DNA from: an uncultured Oscillospiraceae bacterium | Lineage (GTDB): Bacteria; Bacillota; Clostridia; Oscillospirales; Oscillospiraceae | Direction: 5' to 3' | Assembly: GCA_949916125.1 (NCBI GenBank) | Contig: CATLEJ010000009.1 | Location: 1 to 34,310 of the forward strand | DNA length: 34,310 bases | Part shown: positions 2,415 through 12,798 of the stretch, piece after piece | Position numbering within the stretch: the stretch's first letter is position 1 | Layout: every line of letters starts with the position of its first letter | Translations under genes and position numbers: made by a program | The notes under the pieces: generated by a model | The model's database searches: none | What the model was told of the DNA's origin: nothing | What the model saw: the letters and a program-made list of their open reading frames with translations, nothing else

Positions 2415-2742
2415 AAATACACCTCACTTTGGTATTAAGGATATGCCCGGAATAGGGCAAACTATGTTTGTCCCATTGAAAAAATGCGGGAAATCGCCGC
2501 ATTTCAAATTTGGAACGAACAGGGACCCTGTCCAAATCCGGGGCAAATTCCCAGCTCCCCCCAGCGCGGGCCCCAAAAATCCGCCCGGGCGGAGAACTGG
2601 TTCCGCCGCCCTTGTCAAACCCGCCTGACTTTGCCACGGTGAAAATCCTGTGCCGCCGCCATATTAAAAAGGCGGACGTTAGGGCGCTGACGGAGATTTT
2701 TCCGCCAACGCCCGGCCGCCCGTAGTTTCAAAAAGGCGGTGA
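2415..2742. other. Divergent intergenic region upstream of spoIVB
   Basis: About 330 bases without a credible gene. It contains an 8-bp hairpin (2482-2489 with 2497-2504) followed on the minus strand by a T-run, which could be an attenuator ahead of the DUF6512-like gene. CATATTA at 2660-2666 resembles the -10 of forespore sigma-G promoters, expected for spoIVB, but no well-spaced -35 is visible, so this is weak. A degenerate ribosome binding site (AAGGCGGTGA) precedes spoIVB. Confidence 0.4.
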
Positions 2743-3795
2743 ATGGATTTGAATGAAGAAGCAAGACCATTTGTGGGGGCGGCGGCGCTGCGGGGCGCGG
2801 CGCTGCTGCTGGGGTTGGTGCTGACCATGTGGCCCGCCGTGGCCACGGCTTGGGCCAGCCCGGTTTCCGTGGTGCCCGTGGGCCGGGCGGTGGGCATCAA
2901 GCTTTTTTCCGACGGCGTGGTGGTGGTGGGCACCTCCGACGTGGCCGGGGAGGGGGGCAGCGTGAACCCGGCCAAGGCCTGCGGCCTGAAGGAGGGGGAC
3001 ATCATCACCCACATCAACTCCACCGAGGTGGACACCATTGAGGAGGTGTCCGCCCTGCTCCAGGAGCTGGAGGGGGAGACCATGAGCATCCGGGCCATCC
3101 GGGACGACAAGCAGGTGCAGCTCACCGCCCAGGCGGTGCTGTGCCCGGCCGACGGGGCCTACAAGCTGGGGGCCTGGATCCGGGACTCCATGGCGGGCAT
3201 CGGCACGGTGACCTTCTACGACCCGGCCACCGGGGCCTTCGGGGCGCTGGGCCACGGCATCAACGACGTGGATACCGCCCTGCTCATGCCCCTGGAGAGC
3301 GGCTCCATCCTGCCCGCCACCGTGGCGGGGGTGGAGAAGGGCAAAAGCGGCGCGCCGGGGCAGCTCAAGGGGATTTTTGACACCTCGTCCACCCTGGGGC
3401 TGCTCAGCGCCAACACCGACGGCGGCGTGTTCGGCACCATGACGGACGGCCGCTGGGCCCAGGGCGACCCGGTGGAGGTGGCGGCCAGGGACGAGGTGCG
3501 GCCCGGCCCCGCCCAGATCCTGTGCAATATCTCGGGCGACCGGGTGGACCGGTTTGAGGTGGAAATCGCCAAGGTGTTCGCCCAGCGGGAGGGCGACTGC
3601 CGGGACTACCTGCTCAAGGTGACCGACCGGCGGCTGCTGGACGCCACCGGCGGCATCGTCCAGGGCATGAGCGGCAGCCCCATCCTCCAGGGCGGCAAGA
3701 TCGTGGGGGCGGTCACCCACGTCATGGTGGACGACCCCACCAGCGGCTACGGCATCTATGTGGGCCGAATGCTCCAGCACAGCGGCGCGGCATAA
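2743..3795 (+). CDS. spoIVB: SpoIVB serine peptidase (sporulation signalling protease)
   Basis: Forespore-secreted serine peptidase (family S55) that cleaves SpoIVFA and so releases pro-sigma-K processing in the mother cell. Order of features: an N-terminal signal anchor (about residues 15-38), a PDZ domain (about 50-130, with GLKEGDIITHINS), then the peptidase domain. The catalytic His lies in ALGHGIND (H171) and the nucleophile Ser in GMSGSPIL (S310/S312); the characteristic HVMVDDPTSGYGIYV ends the protein. At 350 residues it is shorter than the Bacillus subtilis protein (about 426), mainly N-terminally. It marks the host as a spore former. A strong promoter for the next gene starts right after the stop, so it is probably transcribed alone. 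Confidence 0.96.
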   Translation: MDLNEEARPFVGAAALRGAALLLGLVLTMWPAVATAWASPVSVVPVGRAVGIKLFSDGVVVVGTSDVAGEGGSVNPAKACGLKEGDIITHINSTEVDTIEEVSALLQELEGETMSIRAIRDDKQVQLTAQAVLCPADGAYKLGAWIRDSMAGIGTVTFYDPATGAFGALGHGINDVDTALLMPLESGSILPATVAGVEKGKSGAPGQLKGIFDTSSTLGLLSANTDGGVFGTMTDGRWAQGDPVEVAARDEVRPGPAQILCNISGDRVDRFEVEIAKVFAQREGDCRDYLLKVTDRRLLDATGGIVQGMSGSPILQGGKIVGAVTHVMVDDPTSGYGIYVGRMLQHSGAA

Positions 3796-3798
3796 GGC

Positions 3799-3828
3799 TT
3801 GACAGGGGCGGGGGCGGAGTAGTATGAT
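3799..3828 (+). promoter_or_regulatory. Sigma-A promoter for the HD-domain gene and trmO
   Basis: TTGACA (3799-3804), an 18-base spacer and TATGAT (3823-3828), immediately after the spoIVB stop and about 30 bases before the HD-protein start. Confidence 0.85.
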
Positions 3829-3860
3829 CCTTTCATCACAGAAAAAAGGAGATGTCCGCC

Positions 3861-4418
3861 ATGATACCCACCCCGGACCAGGCATGGGAGCTGTTATGCG
3901 AATACAACGAGGGGGAGTTCCACCGCAAACACGCCCGCACCGTGGGCGACGTGCTGCGCTGGTTCGCCCAGGAGCTGGGCCACGGCCAGGAGGCCGACTA
4001 CTGGGAGGCCGTGGGCATCCTCCACGACCTGGATTTTGAGCGGTGGCCCGACAAGCACTGCGTCAAGTGCCAGGAGCTCATGCGGGAGAAGGGCATCGAC
4101 GAGTCCCTGATCCGGGCGGTGGCCTGCCATGGCTGGCCCGACTGCGTGGACATCGAGCCCCAGCTGGAGATGGAAAAGGTGCTCTTCGCCGTGGACGAGC
4201 TGACGGGCCTCATCGGCGCGGCGGCCATGATGCGCCCCTCCAAGAGCGTGAGCGACATGGAGGTCAAGTCGCTGAAAAAGAAGTTCAAGGACAAAAAATT
4301 CGCGGCGGGCTGCTCCCGGGACGTGATCCAGAAGGGCGCGGAGCTGCTGGGCTGGGAGCTGGACGACCTGATGGCCCGCACCATCGAGGCCATGCGGGCC
4401 AGCCCCAACGTGGACTGA
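3861..4418 (+). CDS. HD-domain hydrolase-like protein
   Basis: A 185-residue cytoplasmic protein of the HD phosphohydrolase superfamily. Metal-ligand-like residues are in EFHRKHARTV, the HD pair in GILHDLDFERW, and VACHGWPD and the Asp of FAVDELTGLI further on. The order H...HD...H...D is what HD proteins use to bind one or two divalent metals. Similar small HDIG proteins are widespread in Clostridia but their substrate is unknown, so none is assigned. Start choice: ATG 3852 sits directly on the AAGGAG sequence with no spacing, while ATG 3861 is nine bases downstream, so 3861 is preferred. It shares a promoter with trmO, which begins two bases after its stop. Confidence 0.88.
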   Translation: MIPTPDQAWELLCEYNEGEFHRKHARTVGDVLRWFAQELGHGQEADYWEAVGILHDLDFERWPDKHCVKCQELMREKGIDESLIRAVACHGWPDCVDIEPQLEMEKVLFAVDELTGLIGAAAMMRPSKSVSDMEVKSLKKKFKDKKFAAGCSRDVIQKGAELLGWELDDLMARTIEAMRASPNVD

Positions 4419-4419
4419 C

Positions 4420-5091
4420 GTGGAGCCTGTCGCCCGTATCCGCACCGATTTCCCCACCAAATTCGGCGTGCCCCGGCAGGCGGGGCTGGTGGAGGGGCTG
4501 TCCGCCGCGGTGGTGTTTGAGCCGGAATACCGCGTCCCCGACGCCCTGCGGGGGCTGGACGGCTTCTCCCACCTGTGGCTGATCTGGGAGTTTTCCGAAA
4601 ACAGGGGGGCGGGGTGGTCGCCCACCGTGCGCCCGCCCCGGCTGGGCGGGAACGCGCGCCTGGGGGTGTTCGCCACCCGCTCCCCCTTCCGGCCCAACCC
4701 CATCGGCCTGTCCTGCGTACGCCTGGAGCGGGTGGAGCTGTCCACTCCGGACGGCCCGGTGCTCTTTGTCTCCGGGGCGGACCTGGTGGACGGCACCCCC
4801 ATCCTGGACATCAAGCCCTATGTGCCCTATGCCGACTGCCATCCCGAGGCGTCCGGGGGGTTCGCGGGGGAGGCCCCGGAGCCCCGGCTGGCGGTGGAGT
4901 TTCCGCGGTCGCTGCTGGCGCTGGTGCCGGGGGACCGCCGGGCGGCGCTGATCGGCGTGCTGGCCCAGGATCCCCGGCCGCCCTACCAGCACGACCCGTC
5001 GCGGGTGTACGGCTTCGGGTTTGCGGGGCTGGAGGTGCGCTTCACCGCGGGGGACGGGGTGCTCACCGTGACCGATGTTTTCAAAAAATAA
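4420..5091 (+). CDS. trmO: tRNA (t6A37) N6-methyltransferase TrmO
   Basis: SAM-dependent enzyme that methylates N6-threonylcarbamoyladenosine at position 37 of certain tRNAs, improving decoding of ACC codons. The TsaA/YaeB beta-barrel signature is clear: IRTDFPTKFGVPRQ, GLDGFSHLWLIWEF, the family hallmark GVFATRSPFRPNPIGLS, GADLVDGTPILDIKPY and the C-terminal half with PPYQHDPSRVYGF. The length of 223 residues is usual. The start is a GTG one base past the preceding stop; there is no convincing separate Shine-Dalgarno, so translation is probably coupled to the HD gene. A strong terminator follows immediately. Confidence 0.95.
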   Translation: MEPVARIRTDFPTKFGVPRQAGLVEGLSAAVVFEPEYRVPDALRGLDGFSHLWLIWEFSENRGAGWSPTVRPPRLGGNARLGVFATRSPFRPNPIGLSCVRLERVELSTPDGPVLFVSGADLVDGTPILDIKPYVPYADCHPEASGGFAGEAPEPRLAVEFPRSLLALVPGDRRAALIGVLAQDPRPPYQHDPSRVYGFGFAGLEVRFTAGDGVLTVTDVFKK

Positions 5092-5140
5092 AACAGTCCC
5101 GCACATAACCGCGTTCGGTATGTGCGGGACTGTTTTGTTT
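5090..5140. terminator. Bidirectional intrinsic terminator after trmO
   Basis: Arms 5090-5107 and 5119-5136 are complementary over about 17 bp (AAACAGTCCCGCACAT and its complement) around a short loop that can itself pair. The tail is T-rich on the plus strand (TTTTGTTTTT) and on the minus strand, so it ends trmO and could back up transcripts arriving from the right. Confidence 0.93.
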
Positions 5141-5151
5141 TTAAGTGCAGC

Positions 5152-5180
5152 TTGACAAATTTTCAAGCGGCGGCTATAAT
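5152..5180 (+). promoter_or_regulatory. Consensus sigma-A promoter of the antisense RNA
   Basis: Exact TTGACA (5152-5157), a 17-base spacer and exact TATAAT (5175-5180). No plus-strand gene follows for hundreds of bases; the first element downstream is a hairpin terminator at 5253-5294. It therefore drives a short RNA expected to start near 5187. Confidence 0.88.
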
Positions 5181-5210
5181 AAAAAGTGTGGAACCCAGAC
5201 GGTTGCCACA
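5181..5210 (-). terminator. Terminator of the toxin-like mRNA
   Basis: On the minus strand, GTGGCAACC pairs with GGTTCCAC (loop GTCTG, one bulged C), followed by ACTTTTTATTAT. It lies inside the start region of the antisense RNA, so the peptide mRNA would run from about 5506 to about 5180. Confidence 0.6.
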
Positions 5211-5294
5211 ATTTGATACGTTACTCTGAACTGGGGCTATGCCCCAACCTCAGTGAGCCGATCTGTTGCAGCAGACGGCTCACTTCTTCTTTCT
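5187..5294 (+). ncRNA. Candidate type I antitoxin RNA (~108 nt)
   Basis: Predicted RNA from the perfect promoter at 5152-5180 to the terminator at 5253-5294. It folds into three hairpins: 5189-5210 (GTGGAACC / GGTTGCCAC with one bulge), 5226-5253 (core TGGGGC-TAT-GCCCCA) and the terminator stem. It is antisense to the entire 3' UTR and last five codons of the small minus-strand peptide gene at 5280-5432, the layout of txpA/ratA and bsrG/SR4 in Bacillus subtilis. Its first 12 nt (TGTGGAACCCAG) also form the predicted 5' end of the peptide's mRNA. No ORF of note lies in it. The role is inferred from layout only. Confidence 0.62.
5253..5294 (+). terminator. Terminator of the antisense RNA
   Basis: Stem GTGAGCCG (5253-5260) with CGGCTCAC (5276-5283), extended inward by TCTG/CAGA, then a T-rich tail TTCTTCTTTCT. 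The right arm overlaps the stop codon of the convergent toxin-like gene. Confidence 0.75.
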
Positions 5295-5432
5295 ATCGTA
5301 CAGGTACAGTACGAAGGAAGCAATGCTGGCCAGGGCGCCAACGGCGCCGAAAATGCCAAGCAGACCTTCAGAAGTTATATGTATCACCTCCCCCGGGAGA
5401 AATTCCCGCGAGGGCTTTACACACGCCTCCAT
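5280..5432 (-). CDS. Small holin-like membrane peptide, putative type I toxin
   Basis: A 50-codon ORF. The last ~32 residues hold a glycine/alanine-rich hydrophobic helix (GLLGIFGAVGALAS...FVLYLY) ending in DRKKK. This is the build of short putative holin-like/TxpA-type toxins in Firmicutes: one membrane helix and a basic tail. The true start is uncertain. ATG 5432 has a poor ribosome binding site and lies inside a hairpin (5405-5412 with 5439-5446), while the only strong Shine-Dalgarno (GGGGGAGGTGAT) is internal and eight bases before an ATA codon, giving a ~32-residue peptide; a GTG overlaps it. It may use a rare start or have lost its ATG. It has its own consensus promoter, an antisense RNA over its 3' end, and a terminator. 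The family match is from memory. Confidence 0.6.
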   Translation of the reverse strand: MEACVKPSREFLPGEVIHITSEGLLGIFGAVGALASIASFVLYLYDRKKK

Positions 5433-5512
5433 TCCGCTCTCGCGGGACAGCAGGCAACCGTCTTTATCCTCTGCCGCGCCGGGACGGCCCGGCAGCTGGG
5501 TTCCACAGGTTT

Positions 5513-5540
5513 ATTATAACAAAATCCGCGGCGTTGTCAA
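5513..5540 (-). promoter_or_regulatory. Consensus sigma-A promoter of the toxin-like gene
   Basis: On the minus strand: exact TTGACA (5540-5535), a 16-base spacer and exact TATAAT (5518-5513). The predicted RNA starts near 5506 with TGTGGAACCCAG. A 7-bp inverted repeat CCGCGGC (5526-5532 / 5546-5552) brackets the -35 and could be an operator or part of an upstream hairpin. Confidence 0.82.
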
Positions 5541-5561
5541 TTCCCGCCGCGGCACAATAGA

Positions 5562-5586
5562 GGGGAGCGGGCTGTACCCGCTCCCC
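5562..5586 (-). terminator. Hairpin, probable original terminator of the rubrerythrin gene
   Basis: Ten-bp perfect stem GGGGAGCGGG / CCCGCTCCCC with a 5-base loop, 18 bases past the stop of the displaced rubrerythrin 3' end. Tails are only weakly T-rich. Before the element inserted, this would have ended the rubrerythrin transcript. Confidence 0.6.
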
Positions 5587-5603
5587 CCTTCTGCTGTAAT
5601 GAT

Positions 5604-5729
5604 TTACTTGAAATATCTTTCAAGTAAGCCCTTCAGGGCCTTGCCGTGGCGGGCCTCGGCATTAGACTGTTTCCAAAAGTCGTTGGAAATACAGGCTTTT
5701 TCAATGGTTGCAATCTGATTACACACCAT
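5604..5729 (-). pseudogene. Displaced 3' end of the rubrerythrin gene, fused to element DNA
   Basis: Bases 5604-5660 encode [18 protein letters not shown] and a stop, matching the C-terminus of the intact rubrerythrin at 11726-12313. Codons left of the core (5604 to ~5650) are mostly GC-rich like the host; sequence right of it is AT-rich like the element. An in-frame ATG at 5729 makes a 41-codon chimeric ORF, but its first half resembles no known protein and no ribosome binding site stands out. This is read as the chromosomal 3' remnant left at the left junction of the integrated element, not a functional gene. Confidence 0.88.
5650..5658 (+). repeat. Left attachment core (attL)
   Basis: CGGGCCTCG, identical to 11772-11780. 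Base composition changes sharply here: GC-rich rubrerythrin codons to the left, AT-rich element sequence to the right. On the gene strand the core spells the codons for the E-A-R of the EARH diiron motif. Confidence 0.72.
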
Positions 5730-5739
5730 ATTACACAAC
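5719..5739 (+). repeat. Left-end integrase arm-site candidates
   Basis: Two direct TTACACA copies 12 bases apart (5719-5725, 5731-5737). The second lies in CACCATATTACACAAC (5724-5739), repeated exactly at 11625-11640. Spaced short repeats inside each element end are what arm-type integrase binding sites look like; the role is inferred. Confidence 0.5.
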
Positions 5740-5742
5740 TGT

Positions 5743-7077
5743 TTAATGTGGGATCAGGGCACCAGCCTTTGCTATCGCCTTGGCTCGGCTCTCAAGCACA
5801 AGTTGGGTCCCGCCGTACCCGTCCGGGGCCTCCACATATCTTTCCTCTGTGGTGATACCATTAAGGGCACTCAATAACTGCCGTCTGCTTTCCTCGGACT
5901 GGTTCACGTAGTATTTCATAGTAGTCTCGAATTTTTTGTGGCCCGCCCTATTCATTACCTCAATGGCTGGGATATTCAAGTTTGCCAGATAGGTCAAATG
6001 GGTTTTTCTTAGAGCGTGGAAATTGAAGTCGATCCCTGTGTCTGCCTTTATTTTCTTACTATAATACTTGATGGAGTTGATTGTCAAGAGTTCACCATTT
6101 TCTTTTCTGTTGATGAAGTCCCCGCCTTGAATCTCGGTAACAACTCGGCTCTTGGTCTTGTCCAAAACAATCTCGCTTGCCCTGCTCCTGTATGCCTGGG
6201 TAGGGTGCTTTTTTTGCTCTCTGAACTTCTCTTTCAAATGCTCATGCAACAGGTCAGGCACATCAATCACCCGCACACTCTTTAAGGTTTTCACGGGGCG
6301 CAAGCAGAAACAACCATCCTCATAGGTCATCTGTCTGCACACTGTTAATTGGTGGGTGTCCCAGTTGTAGTCACTCCACAACAACCCAAACACCTCGGCA
6401 ATCCTTAACCCACACGTATACCCAAGCAAAAAAGCTGTGTAGCAATTACCAGTTTCAAAAATCTTGCTTATCTGGCTGATCTCATAAGAATCGAAAGTCC
6501 TTATTTTTTCGTATTCCTCAAAATCTTCCTGCGTCATTTTTGGCATTTGTAACTTGGTGCCCTTGTCCAAAAACATCCTTGTGTATCTCTCTGGGTCTAT
6601 TTTTTCCTCTGCATATGCAATCCCGAACAACTGATAGAACAGTTTCAGAAATCCCTCCACATACTTGTAAGACAAACCAGAGTTATACAGTTCTTGGAGA
6701 TACGAGTTCATGTCTGCCACTGTTATTTCACTTATGAGCCTATCCCCAAACTCGCCTTTGATATGCTGATTCCAAAGAGACGAATATTTCCGAACTGTGG
6801 CAGGTGCTTTCCCTGGAGCAACTTTGTCAAGGTACTTATCCCACATTTCTGACAACTTGCAGTCTGTGAATGTTTCGGTTACAGGCTGGGCAGTTCGCAT
6901 TTCAAGGATTTTCTGCTCCCGCGCTCTTTTGGCATCAATCTTCCTGGTAAATGGGTTGCCGTTCTCGTCCCGTCTGAAAGTGGTATCTTTCTTCTTTCCA
7001 CCTTGGGTAACAGTCACCCGGAAACCCCAATTTCCATTTGCCAGTTGAAACAATCCCACGTCGTTATTCTTTGCCAT
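5743..7077 (-). CDS. int: Tyrosine recombinase (integrase) of the element
   Basis: Site-specific recombinase of 444 residues, the Tn916/phage integrase type. An N-terminal AP2-like arm-binding region (about 1-60, with GNWGFRVTVTQGGKKK) is followed by a SAM-like core-binding domain (about 70-170) and the catalytic domain. Catalytic residues are R225 in TCGLR, K263 in RPVKTLK, H354 and R357 in FHALR, H380 in AGHKK, and Y390 in MKYYVN. A further ~50 residues follow the tyrosine. The gene ends 85 bases from the left core, the usual place for an integrase. It has a clear ribosome binding site (TTGGAGGA) and its own promoter. All catalytic residues are present, so it is probably active. Confidence 0.96.
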   Translation of the reverse strand: MAKNNDVGLFQLANGNWGFRVTVTQGGKKKDTTFRRDENGNPFTRKIDAKRAREQKILEMRTAQPVTETFTDCKLSEMWDKYLDKVAPGKAPATVRKYSSLWNQHIKGEFGDRLISEITVADMNSYLQELYNSGLSYKYVEGFLKLFYQLFGIAYAEEKIDPERYTRMFLDKGTKLQMPKMTQEDFEEYEKIRTFDSYEISQISKIFETGNCYTAFLLGYTCGLRIAEVFGLLWSDYNWDTHQLTVCRQMTYEDGCFCLRPVKTLKSVRVIDVPDLLHEHLKEKFREQKKHPTQAYRSRASEIVLDKTKSRVVTEIQGGDFINRKENGELLTINSIKYYSKKIKADTGIDFNFHALRKTHLTYLANLNIPAIEVMNRAGHKKFETTMKYYVNQSEESRRQLLSALNGITTEERYVEAPDGYGGTQLVLESRAKAIAKAGALIPH

Positions 7078-7113
7078 AGTGGTATATCCTCCAATCCCTT
7101 TTTATTTAAGTAC

Positions 7114-7142
7114 ATTATACCACTACACACTAAAAAACACAA
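7114..7142 (-). promoter_or_regulatory. Promoter of the integrase gene
   Basis: On the minus strand TTGTGT (7142-7137), a 17-base spacer and TATAAT (7119-7114), 37 bases before the integrase ATG. Confidence 0.7.
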
Positions 7143-7173
7143 TACCATACACGAAACTTTTTGAAATAAAAAT

Positions 7174-7205
7174 AGGCACCAGCTACTTGGCAAAGGCTGG
7201 TGTCT
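7174..7205 (-). terminator. Terminator of the XRE repressor gene
   Basis: Ten-bp stem AGACACCAGC / GCTGGTGCCT (one G-T pair) followed on the minus strand by ATTTTTATTT. It overlaps the repressor stop codon and separates that gene from int. Confidence 0.8.
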
Positions 7206-7428
7206 ACTTTTTGGGGTATTCTCTTTTTATATTGCTTGCTCCGGTAATATAGTCCAGTGATACATTGTAGAACCTGGCAAGGATCAAAATGCTGTCCACT
7301 GGGATTCTGGTCTTTCCACTCTCATAATCGGCGTATGTTCGTTGTCCAACATGGAGCAGGGCGCCAACATACTTTTGTGTTAAAGAGCTATCTTCTCTTA
7401 ACTCCCTTATTCGCTCGTTCCACTGCAT
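7204..7428 (-). CDS. XRE/Cro-CI family transcriptional regulator of the element
   Basis: A 74-residue protein that is almost entirely one helix-turn-helix domain: IRELREDSSLTQKYVGALLHV, then RTYADYESGKTRIP, the canonical recognition-helix region of Cro/CI proteins, and LARFYNVSLDYITG. It is divergent from the SLH cargo gene. A perfect 7-3-7 palindrome lies between them next to the cargo promoter, so it probably represses that promoter, its own, or both. A GAGGTG ribosome binding site precedes the ATG. Such small XRE proteins commonly control excision or cargo in mobile elements; its exact targets are not shown by sequence. Confidence 0.9.
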   Translation of the reverse strand: MQWNERIRELREDSSLTQKYVGALLHVGQRTYADYESGKTRIPVDSILILARFYNVSLDYITGASNIKREYPKK

Positions 7429-7479
7429 AGGCTACACCTCAACACCAGTATAAGGGAAAAGAAGTGCAACCCCTAAAAT

Positions 7480-7496
7480 TAGAGTTATAAACTCTA
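7480..7496. promoter_or_regulatory. Palindromic operator candidate between the XRE and SLH genes
   Basis: TAGAGTT-ATA-AACTCTA, a perfect 7-bp inverted repeat directly abutting the -35 of the SLH-gene promoter and 52 bases upstream of the XRE start. Probable XRE-protein binding site. Confidence 0.6.
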
Positions 7497-7525
7497 TTGA
7501 CGTTTAAAGCCATGAGCGCTATAAT
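7497..7525 (+). promoter_or_regulatory. Promoter of the SLH cargo gene
   Basis: TTGACG (7497-7502), a 17-base spacer and TATAAT (7520-7525); the ribosome binding site AAAGGAG follows at about 7542. Confidence 0.85.
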
Positions 7526-7557
7526 TAGATAAATACCAAATAAAGGAGTAACAACCC

Positions 7558-8499
7558 ATGAAGAAAAGAATAATGTCACTATTAGCCCTGGTTTTGATTC
7601 TGTCTCTTGTTTCTGTTCCCGCCTATGCTGCAAGTGATGAAGCAACCACCAGTGCCCAAGCACTTTACCAACTGGGCCTATTCAATGGCACCGGCAAAGA
7701 CGCCCAAGGAAATCCAGTCTTTGACTTGGACAGGACACCGACACGATACGAAGCAGTCACGCTCCTGGTCAGACTGTTGGGACGAACCAATGAAGCAGAA
7801 TCAAAAGAGTGGAACACTCCCTTTACCGATCTAAATGCTGGCTGGGCAAAACCCTATGTGGGGTATGCCTATGCGAATAAGTTGACAAGTGGCACATCAG
7901 GTACAACCTATGGTGGGGCCGGAAATGCCACTGTATCGCAATACATCACTTTCGTTTTGAGGGCATTAGGCTATGAGAGTGGTATTGACTTCCAGTGGGA
8001 TAAAGCATGGGAATTGTCTGATAAACTCGGTATCACCAATGGACAGTACAACAGCACAACACACTTTACTCGTGGCGATGTTGTGATTATTTCCTTCAAT
8101 GCTCTTTCTGCAAAGATTAAGAACAAAGATACCACCTTGTTTGAGGATTTGACAGCGAGGGGAGTTGTCAAAGAGCATACCCATAATTATATTGAACAGG
8201 CCATTCCTGGTTCTGGACATTATGAGCAAGTTCAAGTTGGAACTGAAACAGTTGTAGTTGGAACAGAAAAATATTGGATTATTGAATGTAAATGCTGTAG
8301 GCAAACATTTGATAATTCAGATGATTTTAATTGGCATACAGAACCAAATAACCCTAATACTGATGTAAAATGTTGGTTTGCCGCGTCTAATATGTACCAG
8401 CGAAAACGAGAAATAACACAAACACAACCTGTGTATGAGAACAGATGGGTAGAAGATACAATCCGGGTCTGTTCCATCTGTGGACAGCAAGAGCCATAA
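7558..8499 (+). CDS. Secreted SLH-domain protein with Cys/His-rich C-terminus (element cargo)
   Basis: A 313-residue exported protein. Residues 1-25 are a clear signal peptide (KKR, hydrophobic core, cleavage near AYA-AS). Three S-layer-homology repeats follow at about 28-75, 83-135 and 140-190 (FDLDRTPTRYEAVTLLVRLLG; FTDLNAGWAKPYVGYAYANK; WELSDKLGITNG), which normally tether proteins to pyruvylated wall polymers. After HTHNYIEQ, the last ~110 residues hold a CKCC cluster, histidines and a C-terminal CSICG, suggesting one or more metal- or disulfide-stabilised knuckles. This arrangement is not one recognised here. It is the only clear cargo gene, under its own promoter next to a phage-type repressor, and is followed by two terminators. 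Function unknown; a surface interaction role is plausible. Confidence 0.88.
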   Translation: MKKRIMSLLALVLILSLVSVPAYAASDEATTSAQALYQLGLFNGTGKDAQGNPVFDLDRTPTRYEAVTLLVRLLGRTNEAESKEWNTPFTDLNAGWAKPYVGYAYANKLTSGTSGTTYGGAGNATVSQYITFVLRALGYESGIDFQWDKAWELSDKLGITNGQYNSTTHFTRGDVVIISFNALSAKIKNKDTTLFEDLTARGVVKEHTHNYIEQAIPGSGHYEQVQVGTETVVVGTEKYWIIECKCCRQTFDNSDDFNWHTEPNNPNTDVKCWFAASNMYQRKREITQTQPVYENRWVEDTIRVCSICGQQEP

Positions 8500-8517
8500 T
8501 CCCTATTAGGGCACAAC

Positions 8518-8557
8518 AAAACCCAACTCCATCATGGGGTTGGGTTTTCTATTTTTA
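8518..8557 (+). terminator. Intrinsic terminator of the SLH gene
   Basis: Thirteen-bp stem (8518-8530 with 8536-8548, one G-T pair), loop ATCAT, then TCTATTTTT. Confidence 0.92.
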
Positions 8558-8613
8558 GGATTGAATTCTCTATTAACCTAATCGCTCTGGTCTTCCCCCG
8601 CGGGGAAGCGCGC

Positions 8614-8648
8614 CAGCGAGGTGTAAACACCTCGCTGTTGTAATTTTT
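8614..8648 (+). terminator. Second terminator-like hairpin
   Basis: CAGCGAGGTGT / ACACCTCGCTG, a near-continuous palindrome, followed by TTGTAATTTTT. It is preceded by another 7-bp hairpin (8592-8608). Confidence 0.65.
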
Positions 8649-9027
8649 AGGTTGATTTTATATAGTCCAGTGTTTGCATATTCCCAAAATTGACCAATTA
8701 AAGTATGCTGTAACTGCAACATATCAATCCGGTATAATCAATCTGTTTCTTTGTTTGTTAGTCCTCCCCCCGCTTGCGGGGGGCTGGGGGGGTGGTAGTT
8801 ATCCCGATATACTCTAAAAAACGATGTATTTTCAATCCATTTTCTAATTTGGGAAACTTCAAACCCTCGTTTGGGCAGACTTGTCCTGCGAAAACGCAGA
8901 CAAGTCAACCCTAAACGTTAAAATCATCAAAAAAATTAAAACATTTTAATCCACGACTACTTCCAATCAGTATAAAAAACTGATTTTCCATCACGTTTTC
9001 TACAAGCACTCCACGCCAGTCCACTTG

Positions 9028-9327
9028 ATCGGGATTTCTCCCTAAATACGTGTGTCCTCTCCCCGATTACCATAAGGGAGAACGATTGACCATTGCCACC
9101 CGAGGGATAGTTTTAACCATGCCCCAGATTTTGGTATCTGGGGTGTAGGCGGTGGGCTTTCTTCCTCTTTCACCCACTGACGGGCCTATTACAGGTGGAT
9201 TTTGGTTGCAGTAATAAGGTCCGGGGCGATTTTATAGCGTCGGCTCGTCCACACCTATTTGTTGAAGCAGGTTTGCTCTCTGCTGTCTGCGGGGCATGGG
9301 TAATATGGAAATTCGTCTAGATCCCCG
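9028..9327. ncRNA. Candidate large structured RNA (strand and identity unknown)
   Basis: Stems seen: ATCGGG/CCCGAT (9028-9033, 9062-9067) interleaved with TTCTCCCT/AGGGAGAA (9036-9043, 9075-9082), which form a pseudoknot or two alternative folds; CCCCAGAT/ATCTGGGG with a 6-base loop (9122-9143); GTGGG/CCCAC (9152-9177); an 11-bp stem with one bulge (9182-9192 with 9211-9222); AGCAG/CTGCT (9266-9284); CGGGG/CCCCG (9290-9327). The density of stems without coding potential suggests RNA structure. It does not match tmRNA, RNase P, SRP, 6S, T-box or group II intron signatures. No clear promoter on either strand was found. Confidence 0.35.
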
Positions 9328-9508
9328 TCAGATTTCTTATTTTGATGTTAGCATTAAAACAAGCAAAAATGCGCTCTCAAAAAGAGCTGTGATATTCAGT
9401 TTTTAAGTTCTACGTTTATAATATGGTAGAAAAAATATTTTCAAGAAAAAGAAATTTGTAAACAATTTATGAACAAATAGAAGCAGAAATTTTAGGTCTA
9501 ATTTTCTG

Positions 9509-9586
9509 ACTTTCGATTTTGTGATAAGACGCAACGCGGATTGTCACAAAATCGAAAGTGTCGCCAGGAGCGTCACGAAGTGACGC
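9509..9586. repeat. Long inverted repeat plus adjacent hairpin
   Basis: Perfect 16-bp arms ACTTTCGATTTTGTGA (9509-9524) and its complement (9544-9559) around a 19-base loop, followed by GCGTCA-CGAAG-TGACGC (9570-9586). It lies just upstream of the promoter of the small-gene/mobilization region. It could be a protein binding site, a single-strand origin or a copy-control signal; neither T-run nor ORF is associated with it. Confidence 0.7.
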
Positions 9587-9643
9587 GGGACGCGTAGGCC
9601 CAAAATGCACATGGAAAAAATATAAAAAATTTTCAAAAACCTA

Positions 9644-9671
9644 TTGACACTATATGGGAATATGTTATTAT
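9644..9671 (+). promoter_or_regulatory. Promoter of the small-protein operon
   Basis: TTGACA (9644-9649), a 16-base spacer and TATTAT (9666-9671). It overlaps an upstream in-frame ATG at 9670, which argues that the gene starts further down at 9721. Confidence 0.75.
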
Positions 9672-9720
9672 GTTAATAGAACGAAAGTTCTACTGCGATA
9701 GAAAGGAGGTTATGAAGTAT

Positions 9721-9891
9721 ATGGAATACTGGAGTAACGACGCTTGCGAAGGGTATGCTATTATGGCTATGGAAGATGCAGGCTTGGACAATGAAACAAT
9801 ACGCAAAGTATTAAGGATAATGAGTTGCGATTTATTTGATTCTGTGTCCGTTGACGAAGCAAAAGAGTATTACCTCAAGAAACGTTTTTAG
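9721..9891 (+). CDS. Small conserved-looking protein of the element
   Basis: A 56-residue acidic protein: EYWSNDACEGYAIMAMEDAG, then a predicted helix (NETIRKVLRIM), then a DLFDSVSVDEAKEYY segment. A similar W-x-N-D-x-x-x-G-Y-x-I-x-A-M-E pattern is remembered from small ORFs near mobilization genes of clostridial elements; no function is known. Start choice: ATG 9721 is 11 bases after the strong GAAAGGAGGT, ATG 9712 only 2 bases, and ATG 9670 lies within the promoter. It is followed 72 bases later by another small gene with its own ribosome binding site; the two probably form an operon ending at 10211-10249. Confidence 0.75.
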   Translation: MEYWSNDACEGYAIMAMEDAGLDNETIRKVLRIMSCDLFDSVSVDEAKEYYLKKRF

Positions 9892-9963
9892 AAACTAAAA
9901 ATATATCATATTTAGTATACCAGGAGGGCACAAGAGTGCTTTTATAGCAAGGAGGGATAACAA

Positions 9964-10209
9964 ATGAGCAACAAAAAATCAATAGAAGAATTAGAACAGT
10001 CTGCACGAAAAGCAGAAGCACGAGCAAAGGCGTTAAGAGAAAAGGCAAGGAAACAAACCCAAGCAGAAGAAGCCAAACAAAACGCCGAAATCATAAAGGC
10101 AATAGAATACTGGAACGATACAAGGCAAGTTCCGATTGCTAAAAATGATATTGCCGGAAAGTTCTATGAATGGGCAGAAAAGAACAAAGTGAAATATGCA
10201 CATGAATAA
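9964..10209 (+). CDS. Small coiled-coil protein, possible mobilization accessory factor
   Basis: An 81-residue, highly charged protein. Residues 5-45 are rich in Ala, Lys, Glu and Arg with heptad-like spacing (SIEELEQSARKAEARAKALR), predicting a coiled coil. The second half (IEYWNDTRQVPIAKNDIAGKFYEWAEKNK) looks globular. It has an excellent ribosome binding site (AAGGAGGG) and a terminator directly after the stop. Its place between an operon promoter and oriT/mobV resembles accessory relaxosome or regulator genes, but no family was recognised with confidence. Confidence 0.78.
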   Translation: MSNKKSIEELEQSARKAEARAKALREKARKQTQAEEAKQNAEIIKAIEYWNDTRQVPIAKNDIAGKFYEWAEKNKVKYAHE

Positions 10210-10210
10210 A

Positions 10211-10249
10211 AAAGCAGGAGCGAAAGAAATTTCGTTCCTGCTTTTGTTT
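10211..10249 (+). terminator. Terminator of the small-protein operon
   Basis: Stem AAAGCAGGAGCGAAA with TTTCGTTCCTGCTTT (one G-T pair), short loop, tail TTTTGTTTC. Confidence 0.9.
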
Positions 10250-10300
10250 CATATTGTAGATATGAAACATGGGGGTCAAGGGGGCTGTGCCCCTTTGCTC

Positions 10301-10336
10301 ACACTTTGCTTGCAAAGTATAGTGAGTTAGACTTGC
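10301..10336 (+). other. oriT: Origin of transfer (oriT), pMV158/MobV type
   Basis: Contains ACTTTGC-TT-GCAAAGT (inverted repeat 1) overlapping AAGTATAGTGAGTTAGACTT (inverted repeat 2). The core TATAGTGAGTTA closely matches the MobM nick region TAGTGTG/TTA of pMV158, predicting the nick between 10326 and 10327. It lies 80-115 bases upstream of the relaxase gene in the same orientation, as in MobV plasmids. Confidence 0.85.
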
Positions 10337-10415
10337 CCATTAAAAATTTACCGGGAGGTAAATTCTTAATGTGGCAAAGTCTGACGAGCGCGCAATTCTA
10401 AAGGAGGTTTTTTAT

Positions 10416-11459
10416 ATGGCAAGTTATGGAATAATGAGAATTGAGAAGCGAGGACGTTCAGCAATCTATGGATTGCAAATCGAAGCAAACAGGACAGCAC
10501 AAGACCACGAATCCGGGCGAGATTTTGACAGCTCAGACATTGACTGGTCAAAGACAAAGGACAACATACATATAATTCATACTGTAAACTGGAATAGAGA
10601 AATCACAAGGCAAATCAAGCAATATGGATTGAAAGAGCGAAAGGACAGCATTGTGCTCTTGGACGCCCTTTATACTGCAAGCCCTGAATGGTTTGCAACA
10701 CACACACAACGAGAAATGTTGGAGTATTTCCGAGACTGTTTGCGTTTTCACGTGAGGGAATATTGCGGAGGGGATAAGAGCCTACTTGTAAACGCTGTGA
10801 TTCACTTAGATGAAGCAACCCCGCACATGGCCGTGGCCTCCCTCCCAGTCATTACAGACGAAAAGGGCGCACATCTATCGGCTAAAATCATTATGGGAAA
10901 TAAAGACGATTATAGGCTAAGACAAGATAGATTTTATAGCGAGGTATCTTCCCGCTATGGCATGGAACGAGGTGAACCAAAGCGCCCGGAGGAAATTAAA
11001 AAGCACACTACCAAGAGAGAATGGCAAACAGCACAACAAGAAAGCAAAATCAGTAATTTACAACTTCAAAAAGAAATGTTGGAATTTGATGTGAGCTCAA
11101 TCACTGCAACACGTCGATATGAGGACAGGAAAGCAGAGCAAGCCAAGCAGAAAAGGAAAGAAATTGAAAACGAGATCAATGCATTACTCGAAAAGCAGAA
11201 TAGCTTGCAAGAGTGCCACAATAAAAATGTGGAGTACGTCAATAACTGGGCGAATCAGGCTGTTGATAGAATCAAGAAAGCCAACGCCAAACTAACCGAG
11301 TACGAAGAATGCACAAGCACCTTGGAGCGTCAATTTATGGCCGAACTCGAAGAAGCCGTATTGCAGACGCTCGGTGATATTCCAGAACCCCCAGAAATCG
11401 ACTTTGAAGCCCCTGTGGCGCAATTTACTAACTACGATGAAGAAGAATATGAACTATAA
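10416..11459 (+). CDS. mobV: MobV-family relaxase (Mob/Pre)
   Basis: Nicks oriT and stays bound to the transferred strand during mobilization. The protein has 347 residues. The N-terminal ~200 are the Mob_Pre relaxase domain: MASYGIMRIEKRGRSAIYGL, then the metal-binding signature HLDEATPH (H130, D132, E133, H137), and YSEVSSRYGMERGE. The C-terminal part (about 205-310) is a long Lys/Glu-rich coiled coil, probably for dimerisation or membrane and coupling-protein contact, as in MobM. An upstream GTG (10371) is in frame, but AAAGGAGGT sits 7 bases before ATG 10416, which is chosen. It is short for the family (often 400-500), with the missing length in the C-terminal half. Confidence 0.95.
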   Translation: MASYGIMRIEKRGRSAIYGLQIEANRTAQDHESGRDFDSSDIDWSKTKDNIHIIHTVNWNREITRQIKQYGLKERKDSIVLLDALYTASPEWFATHTQREMLEYFRDCLRFHVREYCGGDKSLLVNAVIHLDEATPHMAVASLPVITDEKGAHLSAKIIMGNKDDYRLRQDRFYSEVSSRYGMERGEPKRPEEIKKHTTKREWQTAQQESKISNLQLQKEMLEFDVSSITATRRYEDRKAEQAKQKRKEIENEINALLEKQNSLQECHNKNVEYVNNWANQAVDRIKKANAKLTEYEECTSTLERQFMAELEEAVLQTLGDIPEPPEIDFEAPVAQFTNYDEEEYEL

Positions 11460-11564
11460 CCAGGTGCCCTCAAATGCCCTTAAAATGGCTTTGGGGGCAT
11501 TGGTGTGTACCCACTGTGTACACACTCAAAGGACTATTTGCTTGCTGGCATTGCGCCCAAAAAC

Positions 11565-11640
11565 TTACACACTTCCGACACGGTGTGTAACCACTTAAAG
11601 GACGATTTAACACACAAATATACCCACCATATTACACAAC
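11565..11640. repeat. Right-end integrase arm-site candidates
   Basis: TTACACA at 11565-11571, its inverse TGTGTAA at 11584-11590, a variant TTAACACA at 11607-11614 and TTACACA at 11632-11638. The last is within CACCATATTACACAAC (11625-11640), an exact 16-bp copy of 5724-5739. They lie in the 266-base gap between mobV and the right junction, which also holds the palindrome TGTGTACACA and no gene. Confidence 0.5.
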
Positions 11641-11725
11641 CACATGGGCAAAAAATCAGGGGTGTGTGAGTTTCCCCACACACCCCAAAAATGCCGGAAA
11701 TCGTTGAAATTACAAGGTTTTTCGC

Positions 11726-12313
11726 TTACTTGAAGTAACGCTCCAAAAGCCCCTTCAAGGCTTTTCCATGCCGGGCCTCGTCCCGGGCCATCTCATGCAC
11801 GGTGTCGTGGATGGCGTCCAGGCCGTTCTTCTTGGCGCAGGCGGCCAGGTCGAACTTGCCCTGGGTGGCGCCGAACTCGCAGTCCACCCGCCAGGCCAGG
11901 TTCTTCTTGGTGCTGGCGGTCATGTTGGGCTCCAGCTCGGTGCCCAGCAGCTCGGCGAACTTGGCGGCGTGCTCGGCCTCCTCGTAGGCGGCCTTCTCCC
12001 AGTACAGGCCGATCTCGGGGTAGCCCTCGCGGTGGGCGATGCGGGCCATGCACAGGTACATCCCCACCTCGGAGCACTCGCCGGTGAAGTTGGCCATGAG
12101 CTGCTCCAGGATGTACTTCTTGTCCTCGTCGCTGATGTCGGGGTTGTCCTTCACGGTCTTGGCGTAGATGCCGTACTCATGCTCGGCGGCCAGCTTCATC
12201 TCGCCCTCCTGAAGGGTGAACTTGGCGCCGGTGACGTGGCACACGGGGCACTCGGCAGGGGGGTTCTCACCTTCGTGGACATAACCGCACACCGGGCAGA
12301 TCCATTTTTTCAT
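11726..12313 (-). CDS. Reverse rubrerythrin (NADH peroxidase component), 3' end supplied by the element
   Basis: Non-heme diiron protein that reduces hydrogen peroxide, and indirectly oxygen, in anaerobes. The rubredoxin domain is N-terminal (C6, C9, C22, C25: CPVCGY and CPVC) and the ferritin-like four-helix bundle follows (about 45-195), the reverse order to classical rubrerythrin. Diiron ligand motifs are visible in [21 protein letters not shown] and the terminal DEARHGKAL. It has 195 residues; the start is the ATG after TTTGGAGGAAA. The gene lies 19 bases downstream of a PerR-like regulator, so peroxide-responsive co-transcription is likely. Its last 15 codons differ in style (CAT GGA AAA, TTG, CGT) because the integrated element replaced them; the protein sequence is unchanged. 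Confidence 0.95.
11772..11780 (+). repeat. Right attachment core (attR)
   Basis: CGGGCCTCG, the partner of 5650-5658. GC-rich host rubrerythrin codons lie to its right and AT-rich element-derived codons to its left. Confidence 0.72.
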
Positions 12314-12332: not shown

Positions 12333-12722
12333 TTAAAATTCTTTGCAGTCCTCGCACAGACCGCGGACAATGAATTCCCAGCTCTCCGCCGTGAACCCAT
12401 ATTGCACGCCCAGCCGCTCAACGCAGCCCTCCCCCGGCGAGAGCCGGGGCAGGTCGGCGACGCGACCGCAGCGGTTGCAAATAAAGTGGGAATGGGGGGC
12501 CGTCTGGCCGTCGTACCGCTCCTGACCGTTCACCGTGCCCACCCGGCGCACCAGGCCCTGCTCGCACAGCTGGCCCAGGTTGCGGTAGACGGTGGCCAGG
12601 CTCAGGTCTGGGTAATCCGGCTTGAGCCCCTGGTACACCTGCTCCGCCGAGGGGTGCCGGCCGGTGGCCCGGAGCAGGGCCAGCATGGCGTCCCGTTTTT
12701 TGCTCTGTCGTACAATCGGCAT
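12333..12722 (-). CDS. Fur-family regulator, PerR-like
   Basis: A 129-residue repressor. A winged helix (about 1-80: [34 protein letters not shown]) is followed by a dimerisation/metal domain with [18 protein letters not shown], the Asp of RVADLP and a C-terminal CEDC. The two CxxC pairs form the structural zinc site, and the H/D cluster resembles the regulatory iron site of PerR. The start at ATG 12722 is chosen over longer upstream options because the Fur family begins here and AAGGAT lies nearby. The promoter and an almost perfect palindrome precede it, suggesting autoregulation. Its partner is the peroxide-reducing rubrerythrin just downstream, which favours a PerR over a Fur or Zur role. 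Confidence 0.9.
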
Positions 12723-12744
12723 AGCAACAAATCCTTGCTTGTGA

Positions 12745-12767
12745 TTAATAGGAATAATTCCTGTTAA
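12745..12767. promoter_or_regulatory. PerR/Fur-type operator candidate
   Basis: AGGAAT-A-ATTCCT, a perfect 6-1-6 palindrome extended by TTAA on both sides. It is located just downstream of the promoter -10, where a bound repressor would block transcription of the regulator-rubrerythrin operon. Confidence 0.7.
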
Positions 12768-12769
12768 GG

Positions 12770-12798
12770 ATACTACCACACTTGTCCCGGTTTGTAAA
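12770..12798 (-). promoter_or_regulatory. Promoter of the perR-rubrerythrin operon
   Basis: Minus strand TTTACA (12798-12793), a 17-base spacer and TAGTAT (12775-12770). Confidence 0.7.

Follow-up and report, generated by a model that had tools for sequence, protein, structure and literature searches.

A probable integrative mobilizable element at the 3' end of a reverse-rubrerythrin gene, and a clade of Clostridia integrases mostly docking at the same gene

Why does a single contig of an uncultured Oscillospiraceae bacterium carry two 3' ends of a rubrerythrin gene, in the same orientation and some 6 kb apart? The contig, CATLEJ010000009.1 (assembly GCA_949916125.1), is contig 9 of a 239-contig draft genome of 2.76 Mb, and the whole stretch analysed here (positions 1 to 34,310) is referred to as the window. 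One of the two ends belongs to a complete gene (11726..12313, minus strand), whose 195-aa product has an N-terminal rubredoxin-like domain (RUBY_RBDX, 2.1e-13, residues 4-32) and a C-terminal ferritin-like domain (Rubrerythrin, 3.9e-13, residues 70-189), and which is therefore a reverse rubrerythrin. The other (5604..5658, minus strand) is a short, displaced piece with its stop codon. The DNA between them is very probably an integrative mobilizable element (IME) that integrates at the reverse-rubrerythrin 3' end via a 9-bp core, and whose own copy of this end replaces the displaced one.

The two ends, 5604-5658 and 11726-11780, start 6,122 bp apart and form the longest direct repeat reported between positions 4800 and 13000 (repeat D1; 75% DNA identity over 55 nt). 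They encode identical 17 residues, and all their DNA differences are synonymous. Each includes CGAGGCCCG (gene strand, 5' to 3'; the codons E-A-R) at 11772..11780 and 5650..5658, both on the minus strand and delimited by the run of identity; similarity upstream ceases exactly at this core. The original prediction, made from the letters of the window, had placed two co-oriented 3' ends around an insert of about 6.1 kb and proposed that the element restores an intact gene; both points hold. As to composition, which it had seen switch at the core, GC content is 42% in the insert vs 67% in the flanks, with the qualification that third-position GC is 67% in each 3' end vs 94% in the body of the rubrerythrin gene. 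As this value is equal in both ends, the displaced end does not stand out by its composition as old host DNA, and it may descend from an earlier insertion. Comparison of composition and identity with 29 copies from the genus, some of which themselves carry elements, was not decisive as to which end is native (displaced end closer in 15, supplied end in 3, ties in 11). The tail of the displaced copy (5604-5627) forms a palindrome, TTACTTGAAA-TATC-TTTCAAGTAA, in which the synonymous codons are AT-rich.

The insert codes for a tyrosine integrase of 444 aa (5743..7077, minus strand; Phage_integrase 3.5e-15, Phage_int_SAM_3 1.3e-6). It is full length and keeps, as do eight aligned relatives, R225, H354, R357, H380 and Y389/Y390, which we take to be the catalytic residues. 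A MobV relaxase of 347 aa (10416..11459, plus strand) was recognized by Mob_Pre (3.3e-33), by alignment with MobM (4lvi) and by a match of 43% over 213 residues to MobV of plasmid pOM1. Upstream of it lies a pMV158-type origin of transfer, oriT (10298..10338, plus strand), which holds the exact pattern AAAGTATAGTGAGTTA at 10314-10329, 86 bp before the mobV start codon, found in none of 100 shuffles; the predicted nick, TAGTGAG/TTA, falls between 10326 and 10327. The reference oriT and nick site of pMV158 are those given in the available parts of PMC5863519 and PMC5090054. Among the six element open reading frames (ORFs) scanned no replication or mating-pair family was detected. An own integrase with defined attachment sites, a relaxase with oriT and no mating-pair family are traits of an IME, and the insert content described in the original prediction was thus confirmed.

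Association of the integrase with this gene was followed in other genomes. With the window integrase as query, 11 of 400 genomes of the family (own genome included) gave a match at E < 1e-60; a C-terminal piece of rubrerythrin adjoins the integrase in all ten others, and in six of the ten a complete rubrerythrin gene in the same orientation lies 6 to 13 kb off, within the stretch examined. Matches were also obtained in 4 of 42 genus genomes (E < 1e-30), 34 of 391 class genomes (E < 1e-20; 11 of them above 156 bits, own genome included) and 12 of 398 phylum genomes, the 11 others there all scoring about 106 bits or less. Genomes of named species were scanned with an alignment of nine integrases (100 relatives, best 80 kept), and a rubrerythrin tail was present at most 700 bp from the integrase in 68 of these 80 loci, isolates included; reversed tail peptides, used as a control, gave 3 matches in all 1.3 Mb. 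The five other tyrosine-recombinase matches in the own genome have no rubrerythrin tail.

After the genus, family, class and phylum searches were added and copies removed, 127 distinct integrases were available, 96 of which scored at least 150 bits against profile A1 and were counted as related, together with the window integrase and the nine profile sequences, which are included in this number. A displaced or restored rubrerythrin tail lies within 1 kb of 82 of the 96, and of none of the 31 below 150 bits, in loci whose flank is about 1.5 kb or less, so that a tail farther off would be missed. Among the 14 misses, six begin at most 254 bp from a contig edge (L076, L082, L088, L096, L131, L135), two of these (L082 and L076) with a cut rubrerythrin piece at the edge. 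L146 and L143 are the first and second halves of a split gene, and the tail lies at L146; around L100, tails are found about 2 kb away on either side; a complete rubrerythrin gene stands 3.6 kb from L106 and another 2.3 kb from L114. The window integrase belongs to a clade, present in many Clostridia of the gut, that mostly uses rubrerythrin as its docking site, and the target named in the original prediction was in this way found again in related genomes. In G074:C6 (101598 and 139156) a clade integrase occurs in two parts about 37 kb apart, apparently split by another insertion.

Within the conserved DEARHG motif, the core coincides with the codons for E-A-R, whose start is 17 residues ahead of the stop codon. 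Of 39 elements with two ends, 27 pairs could be placed for an identity profile, the other 12 being skipped. None of the 27 pairs differs at the first or second position of the E and A codons; third positions agree in 85% and 78%, and upstream of the core identity drops to roughly one quarter to one third by 30 nt. When 591 windows of 9 nt in 69 distinct full rubrerythrin genes were ranked by conservation, GACGAGGCC (nt 532-540), overlapping the core by 7 nt, came third. Conservation across these full rubrerythrin genes is at least 98% for each of the residues E179, A180, R181 and H182; the ExxH pair within them presumably binds the di-iron centre. Two more conserved stretches (about nt 502-513 and 517-525) coincide with the starts of longer identity blocks in some sister elements, the blocks thus starting at three conserved stretches. 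We considered that the crossover position may vary among sister elements, a pattern not separable from extra rubrerythrin sequence on the element arm.

Restoration of the gene end was evaluated on the 13 codons after the core in 38 of the 39 two-ended elements (L076, with its first tail cut, was dropped). Out of 494 codons compared, 341 are identical, 135 synonymous and 18 nonsynonymous, that is, 135 of 153 changed codons are synonymous, compared with about 21% expected for random single changes in the window's end; supplied ends are therefore maintained as working coding sequence. Just 3' of the restored stop codon in the window a terminator-like stem-loop is found (11659..11686, minus strand; 12-pair stem followed by TGATTTTTT, -24.5 kcal/mol), although terminator-like sites across the window region are no commoner than in shuffles; a similar structure stands at this place in 29 of the 38 elements, a count made without a shuffled control. 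In L063 (8754-8909) and L121, two of the nine lacking it, the element end has a rubredoxin gene behind the rubrerythrin end, resembling those that follow the displaced end and the L031 gene (Pfam Rubredoxin was run on the L063 and L031 copies). These two elements therefore restore an operon, beyond the gene end alone. In 37 of the 39 elements GC content is lower than in the flanks.

An empty site was recovered for a sister element in the genus of the window. In G429, a 10.8-kb element ends at a displaced tail, directly followed by a small ferredoxin-like gene, and in G431, G404 and G427 an intact rubrerythrin gene is directly followed by the same gene (Fer2_BFD in G431). The predicted pre-insertion junction of G429 matches these three genomes at 91.4, 90.0 and 88.6%, respectively, over 790-844 bp.

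These observations are consistent with a simple mechanism, in which the tyrosine integrase would recombine two copies of the 9-bp core, one carried by the element and one within the reverse-rubrerythrin gene of the host. As the element would bring its own copy of the gene remainder behind the core, together with a terminator, integration would exchange the 3' end of the gene for a synonymous one and push the old end 6.1 kb away; the architecture is seen directly and the event itself we infer from it. Excision would be carried out by the integrase, and mobilization from oriT presumably by MobV with the help of a conjugation system supplied by a helper.

Several results weigh against this explanation. 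The displaced end does not show clearly host-like codon use. The empty site anticipated in the original prediction, found for the G429 sister element, was not found for the window's own element with the flank 2700-5660 in 42 genus genomes (own included), and in the closest relatives G405, G406 and G409 the block beyond 5604 (trmO/SpoIVB) lies elsewhere, not beside rubrerythrin. The exact core 9-mer, two bases on from the highly ranked one, is only 61st of 591 in conservation, and the E and A codons disagree at their third position in 15-22% of the 27 pairs, so that in some sister elements crossover may take place elsewhere. No rubrerythrin end is close to L134, L136 or L157, three integrases that fall within the scoring range. 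L057, whose integrase is 60% identical to that of the window, occupies a different site: its integrase region shares 96.8% DNA identity with that of L058, and its end by GACGAAGCTAG joins unrelated sequence, which makes this location probably a secondary site with partial resemblance. The L057 element also encodes a Rep_OBD/helicase protein, a kind of gene that the window lacks. The original prediction had regarded an integrase found elsewhere with another conserved target as damaging; with L057 at a different site, the target is strongly preferred, not absolute. On the side of transfer, MobV scores 94.8 against a cut-off of 100, and its metal motif, HLDEATPHMA, has Ala for the third His of HUH, departing from the MOBV1 motif HxDExxPHUH (available part of PMC5090054). 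Because of this exchange the relaxase of the window may be weakened. As to the HxxR motif I, the alignment with MobM begins at residue 33, and in comparison with pOM1 both proteins have E-x-N-R at the likely place. Finally, no relatives of the window MobV were detected in the other loci examined (own-genome loci and pOM1 left out), and mobilization by MobV therefore does not extend to the whole clade.

A first rival is that the element integrated in the same manner and has since become an immobile relic with a damaged relaxase and no replication gene. It would account for the HUH motif ending in PHMA, as opposed to PHMH in pOM1 and MobM, and for the stretch between 8500 and 9963, in which no ORF of at least 80 aa occurs; the integrase, however, is full length with its key residues kept, the oriT is exact and the main ORFs are open, and we hold this rival possible but rather doubtful. 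A small prophage or phage satellite is a much weaker candidate and we judge it very unlikely. The tyrosine integrase and a helix-turn-helix (HTH) regulator would fit it, as would a 92-aa protein in a sister element that resembles the end of RecE-like exonucleases, and a weak replication-initiation match in a second sister element, but no structural genes were found among the element ORFs scanned, and MobV and oriT are present. The integrase alignment found no relative in IMG/VR viral contigs, where the single protein gave one partial match of 43 residues, and the best 20 of 317 matches in phage records reach 22-25% identity; on these weak identities and the near-absence from viral contigs a phage origin was rejected. 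In plasmid records the best 20 of 29 integrase matches show 21-26% identity.

That the integrase recognises a short generic motif, rubrerythrin being one site of many and the pattern a matter of sampling, could be suggested by L057 and by the three integrases with no near rubrerythrin end. We consider it highly improbable, for one gene is common to the 82 integrases, the pairs share one codon stretch, and nearly half of the misses (six of 14) lie close to a contig edge. Least credible of all is that gene duplication or a chimeric contig produced the second 3' end. The genome is indeed a draft in many contigs, yet the differences between the two ends, at 25% of bases, are all synonymous, a 9-bp repeat is short for a mis-join, and the pairing of integrase and rubrerythrin end recurs in the named-species loci, isolates included. 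We thus favour the IME integrated at the reverse-rubrerythrin 3' end.

This kind of integration, into the 3' end of a protein gene, is known, and tyrosine-integrase IMEs commonly enter the 3' ends of housekeeping protein genes without disrupting them (PMC5704250, available part). The clade is analogous to the dusA-associated integrases and islands, as far as these are described in the accessible part of PMC4482086: there too tyrosine integrases are tied to one conserved protein gene, contents are diverse with the integrase as the sole universal feature, and restoration of the gene was proposed. The corresponding traits were found here, namely one target gene across hosts (82 of 96 distinct integrases), a restored coding sequence in the 38 pairs, and integrases forming one group on a quick tree. 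According to the same source the dusA elements hit within the 5' end of their target in Proteobacteria, whereas here the 3' end of reverse rubrerythrin is used in Clostridia; excision of dusA islands was shown by PCR, whereas in the present case it is predicted. The content of the window element resembles that of IMESag-rpsI of Streptococcus agalactiae (9.1-9.5 kb), which, in the available part of PMC5090054, has a tyrosine integrase, HTH regulator, MOBV relaxase and pMV158-type oriT; it differs in the rpsI site for which it is named, in having Rep proteins and a toxin-antitoxin pair, and in that its excision and a working relaxase were demonstrated. The best-ranked plasmid match of the window MobV, pOM1 of Butyrivibrio fibrisolvens (NC_002059), is by contrast a free plasmid annotated with RepL, with the metal motif HFDEATPHMH.

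No description of rubrerythrin as an integration target, nor of this clade, was found among the papers listed in searches of the open-licence literature, in line with the original prediction that the gene is not among the commonly described targets; it may sit undiscussed in tables of protein-gene targets (TIGER/Islander). The words rubrerythrin and rbr do not occur in the available main text of the IME review PMC5704250, nor rubrerythrin in the main text of the gut mobile-element survey PMC6907783; PMC5025042 and PMC9674144, in the parts available, deal with different subject matter.

The quick tree consisted of 90 rows, rooted for drawing only and with no alternative-tree test; 24 rows were left out by hand (duplicates, partial proteins), as were proteins below 300 residues and, for the commonest arrangement, each named locus with an even number. 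One branch, with an approximate likelihood ratio (SH-aLRT) support of 98, separates 63 rows, including every row with a rubrerythrin neighbour, from 27 rows with none. The larger side also contains 10 rows with no near tail, all among the misses listed above, and the long branches L156 and L157. Three arrangements can be distinguished. In the window and L058-L060 (similarly in L156 and L140), the integrase stands at the displaced end and reads towards it; in most loci it stands there and reads away; and in L144 and L150-L155 it lies 349-647 bp downstream of the gene and is co-directional with it. The full gene is present in five of the seven loci of this third type; a contig end truncates the remaining two. 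No distal displaced end was found in the five such loci examined (L188-L192), and the evidence for integration at both ends therefore does not extend to them.

Lachnospiraceae elements of the second arrangement have the same order as the window, HTH-integrase-tail, with the integrase inverted. The HTH_3 regulator of the window (7204..7428, minus strand) is up to 82% identical to regulators adjoining the integrases of these same-site elements, which suggests that modules have been exchanged between families at one site. When the proteins of the 39 elements are clustered, the partners met most often are a serine-resolvase family (24) and a WYL-domain family (19), whose clusters (L020 13412-15114 and relatives) occur beside the tyrosine integrase. 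Proteins of about 145 residues, often paired, form a family found in 18 of the 39 (for example L020 5502-6445), two scanned members of which had no match in Pfam or PHROGs. For cluster naming one or two members were scanned per cluster, and 20 of 316 ORFs were searched against Pfam. At L128, L098, L123, L193 and L058 several displaced rubrerythrin tails stand in series, or element-edge sequence lies beyond the displaced tail; this is apparently accretion by repeated insertion at a single site. In L054 (2034-2600, genome G066), L041 and L042, rubrerythrin is followed downstream by short units in tandem, with repeated gene tails, similar terminators and an inverted core copy, CGTGGCGGGCCTCGTC. 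These three genomes yielded no integrase of the clade, and the units resemble attachment-site scars or mini-units.

The findings point to a hotspot of repeated insertion in Clostridia of the gut and rumen, undescribed in the literature searched. A coding motif fixed by protein function would offer elements the same docking site in many hosts, and small displaced rubrerythrin ends can therefore serve as a search tag for mobile elements. Such a tag could reveal elements that may be overlooked by gene-content tools. Most of the sister elements are uncharacterised, and the site with its integrase could serve as a natural landing pad in strict anaerobes, for which genetic tools are scarce.

A wider significance may lie in the neighbourhood of the gene. 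A host gene for a Fur/PerR-family regulator (12333..12779, minus strand; Pfam FUR 9.9e-24, NCBIfam PerR model 2.1e-27, below its cut-off) lies 19 bp upstream of the rubrerythrin gene on the same strand. One may imagine that elements of Clostridia move between families in a dedicated traffic whose key is the metal-ligand codons of a peroxide-defence operon linked to PerR, and that this position matters for control. Under oxidative stress, perR-rubrerythrin transcription would then reach the element, as read-through against mobV in the window and straight into the integrase where the latter stands some 350 bp downstream of the complete gene, and some elements would add protection of the operon by bringing a rubredoxin gene with the rubrerythrin end. 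Excision or transfer would in that case be tied to the oxygen stress of the host. Taken jointly, traffic, stress coupling and operon protection seem improbable to us.

The remaining element genes are an S-layer-homology-domain cargo protein (7558..8499, plus strand), with a relative in the rubrerythrin-site element L025 (58% over 184 aa), and two small plus-strand ORFs with no family above cut-off, one of 73 aa (9670..9891) and one of 81 aa (9964..10209), the latter upstream of oriT and mobV. Three window ORFs tested had no match to defence families, whereas some of seven sister-element proteins matched; no RNA families or tRNA were detected in the window. In the ORF-poor part an inverted repeat was noticed at 9509-9559 (24-nt arms, 88% complementary, 3-nt spacer). 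Beyond the displaced end, an ORF of 50 residues (5280-5432) has a hydrophobic segment and no Pfam match, and in our view resembles small holin-like toxins.

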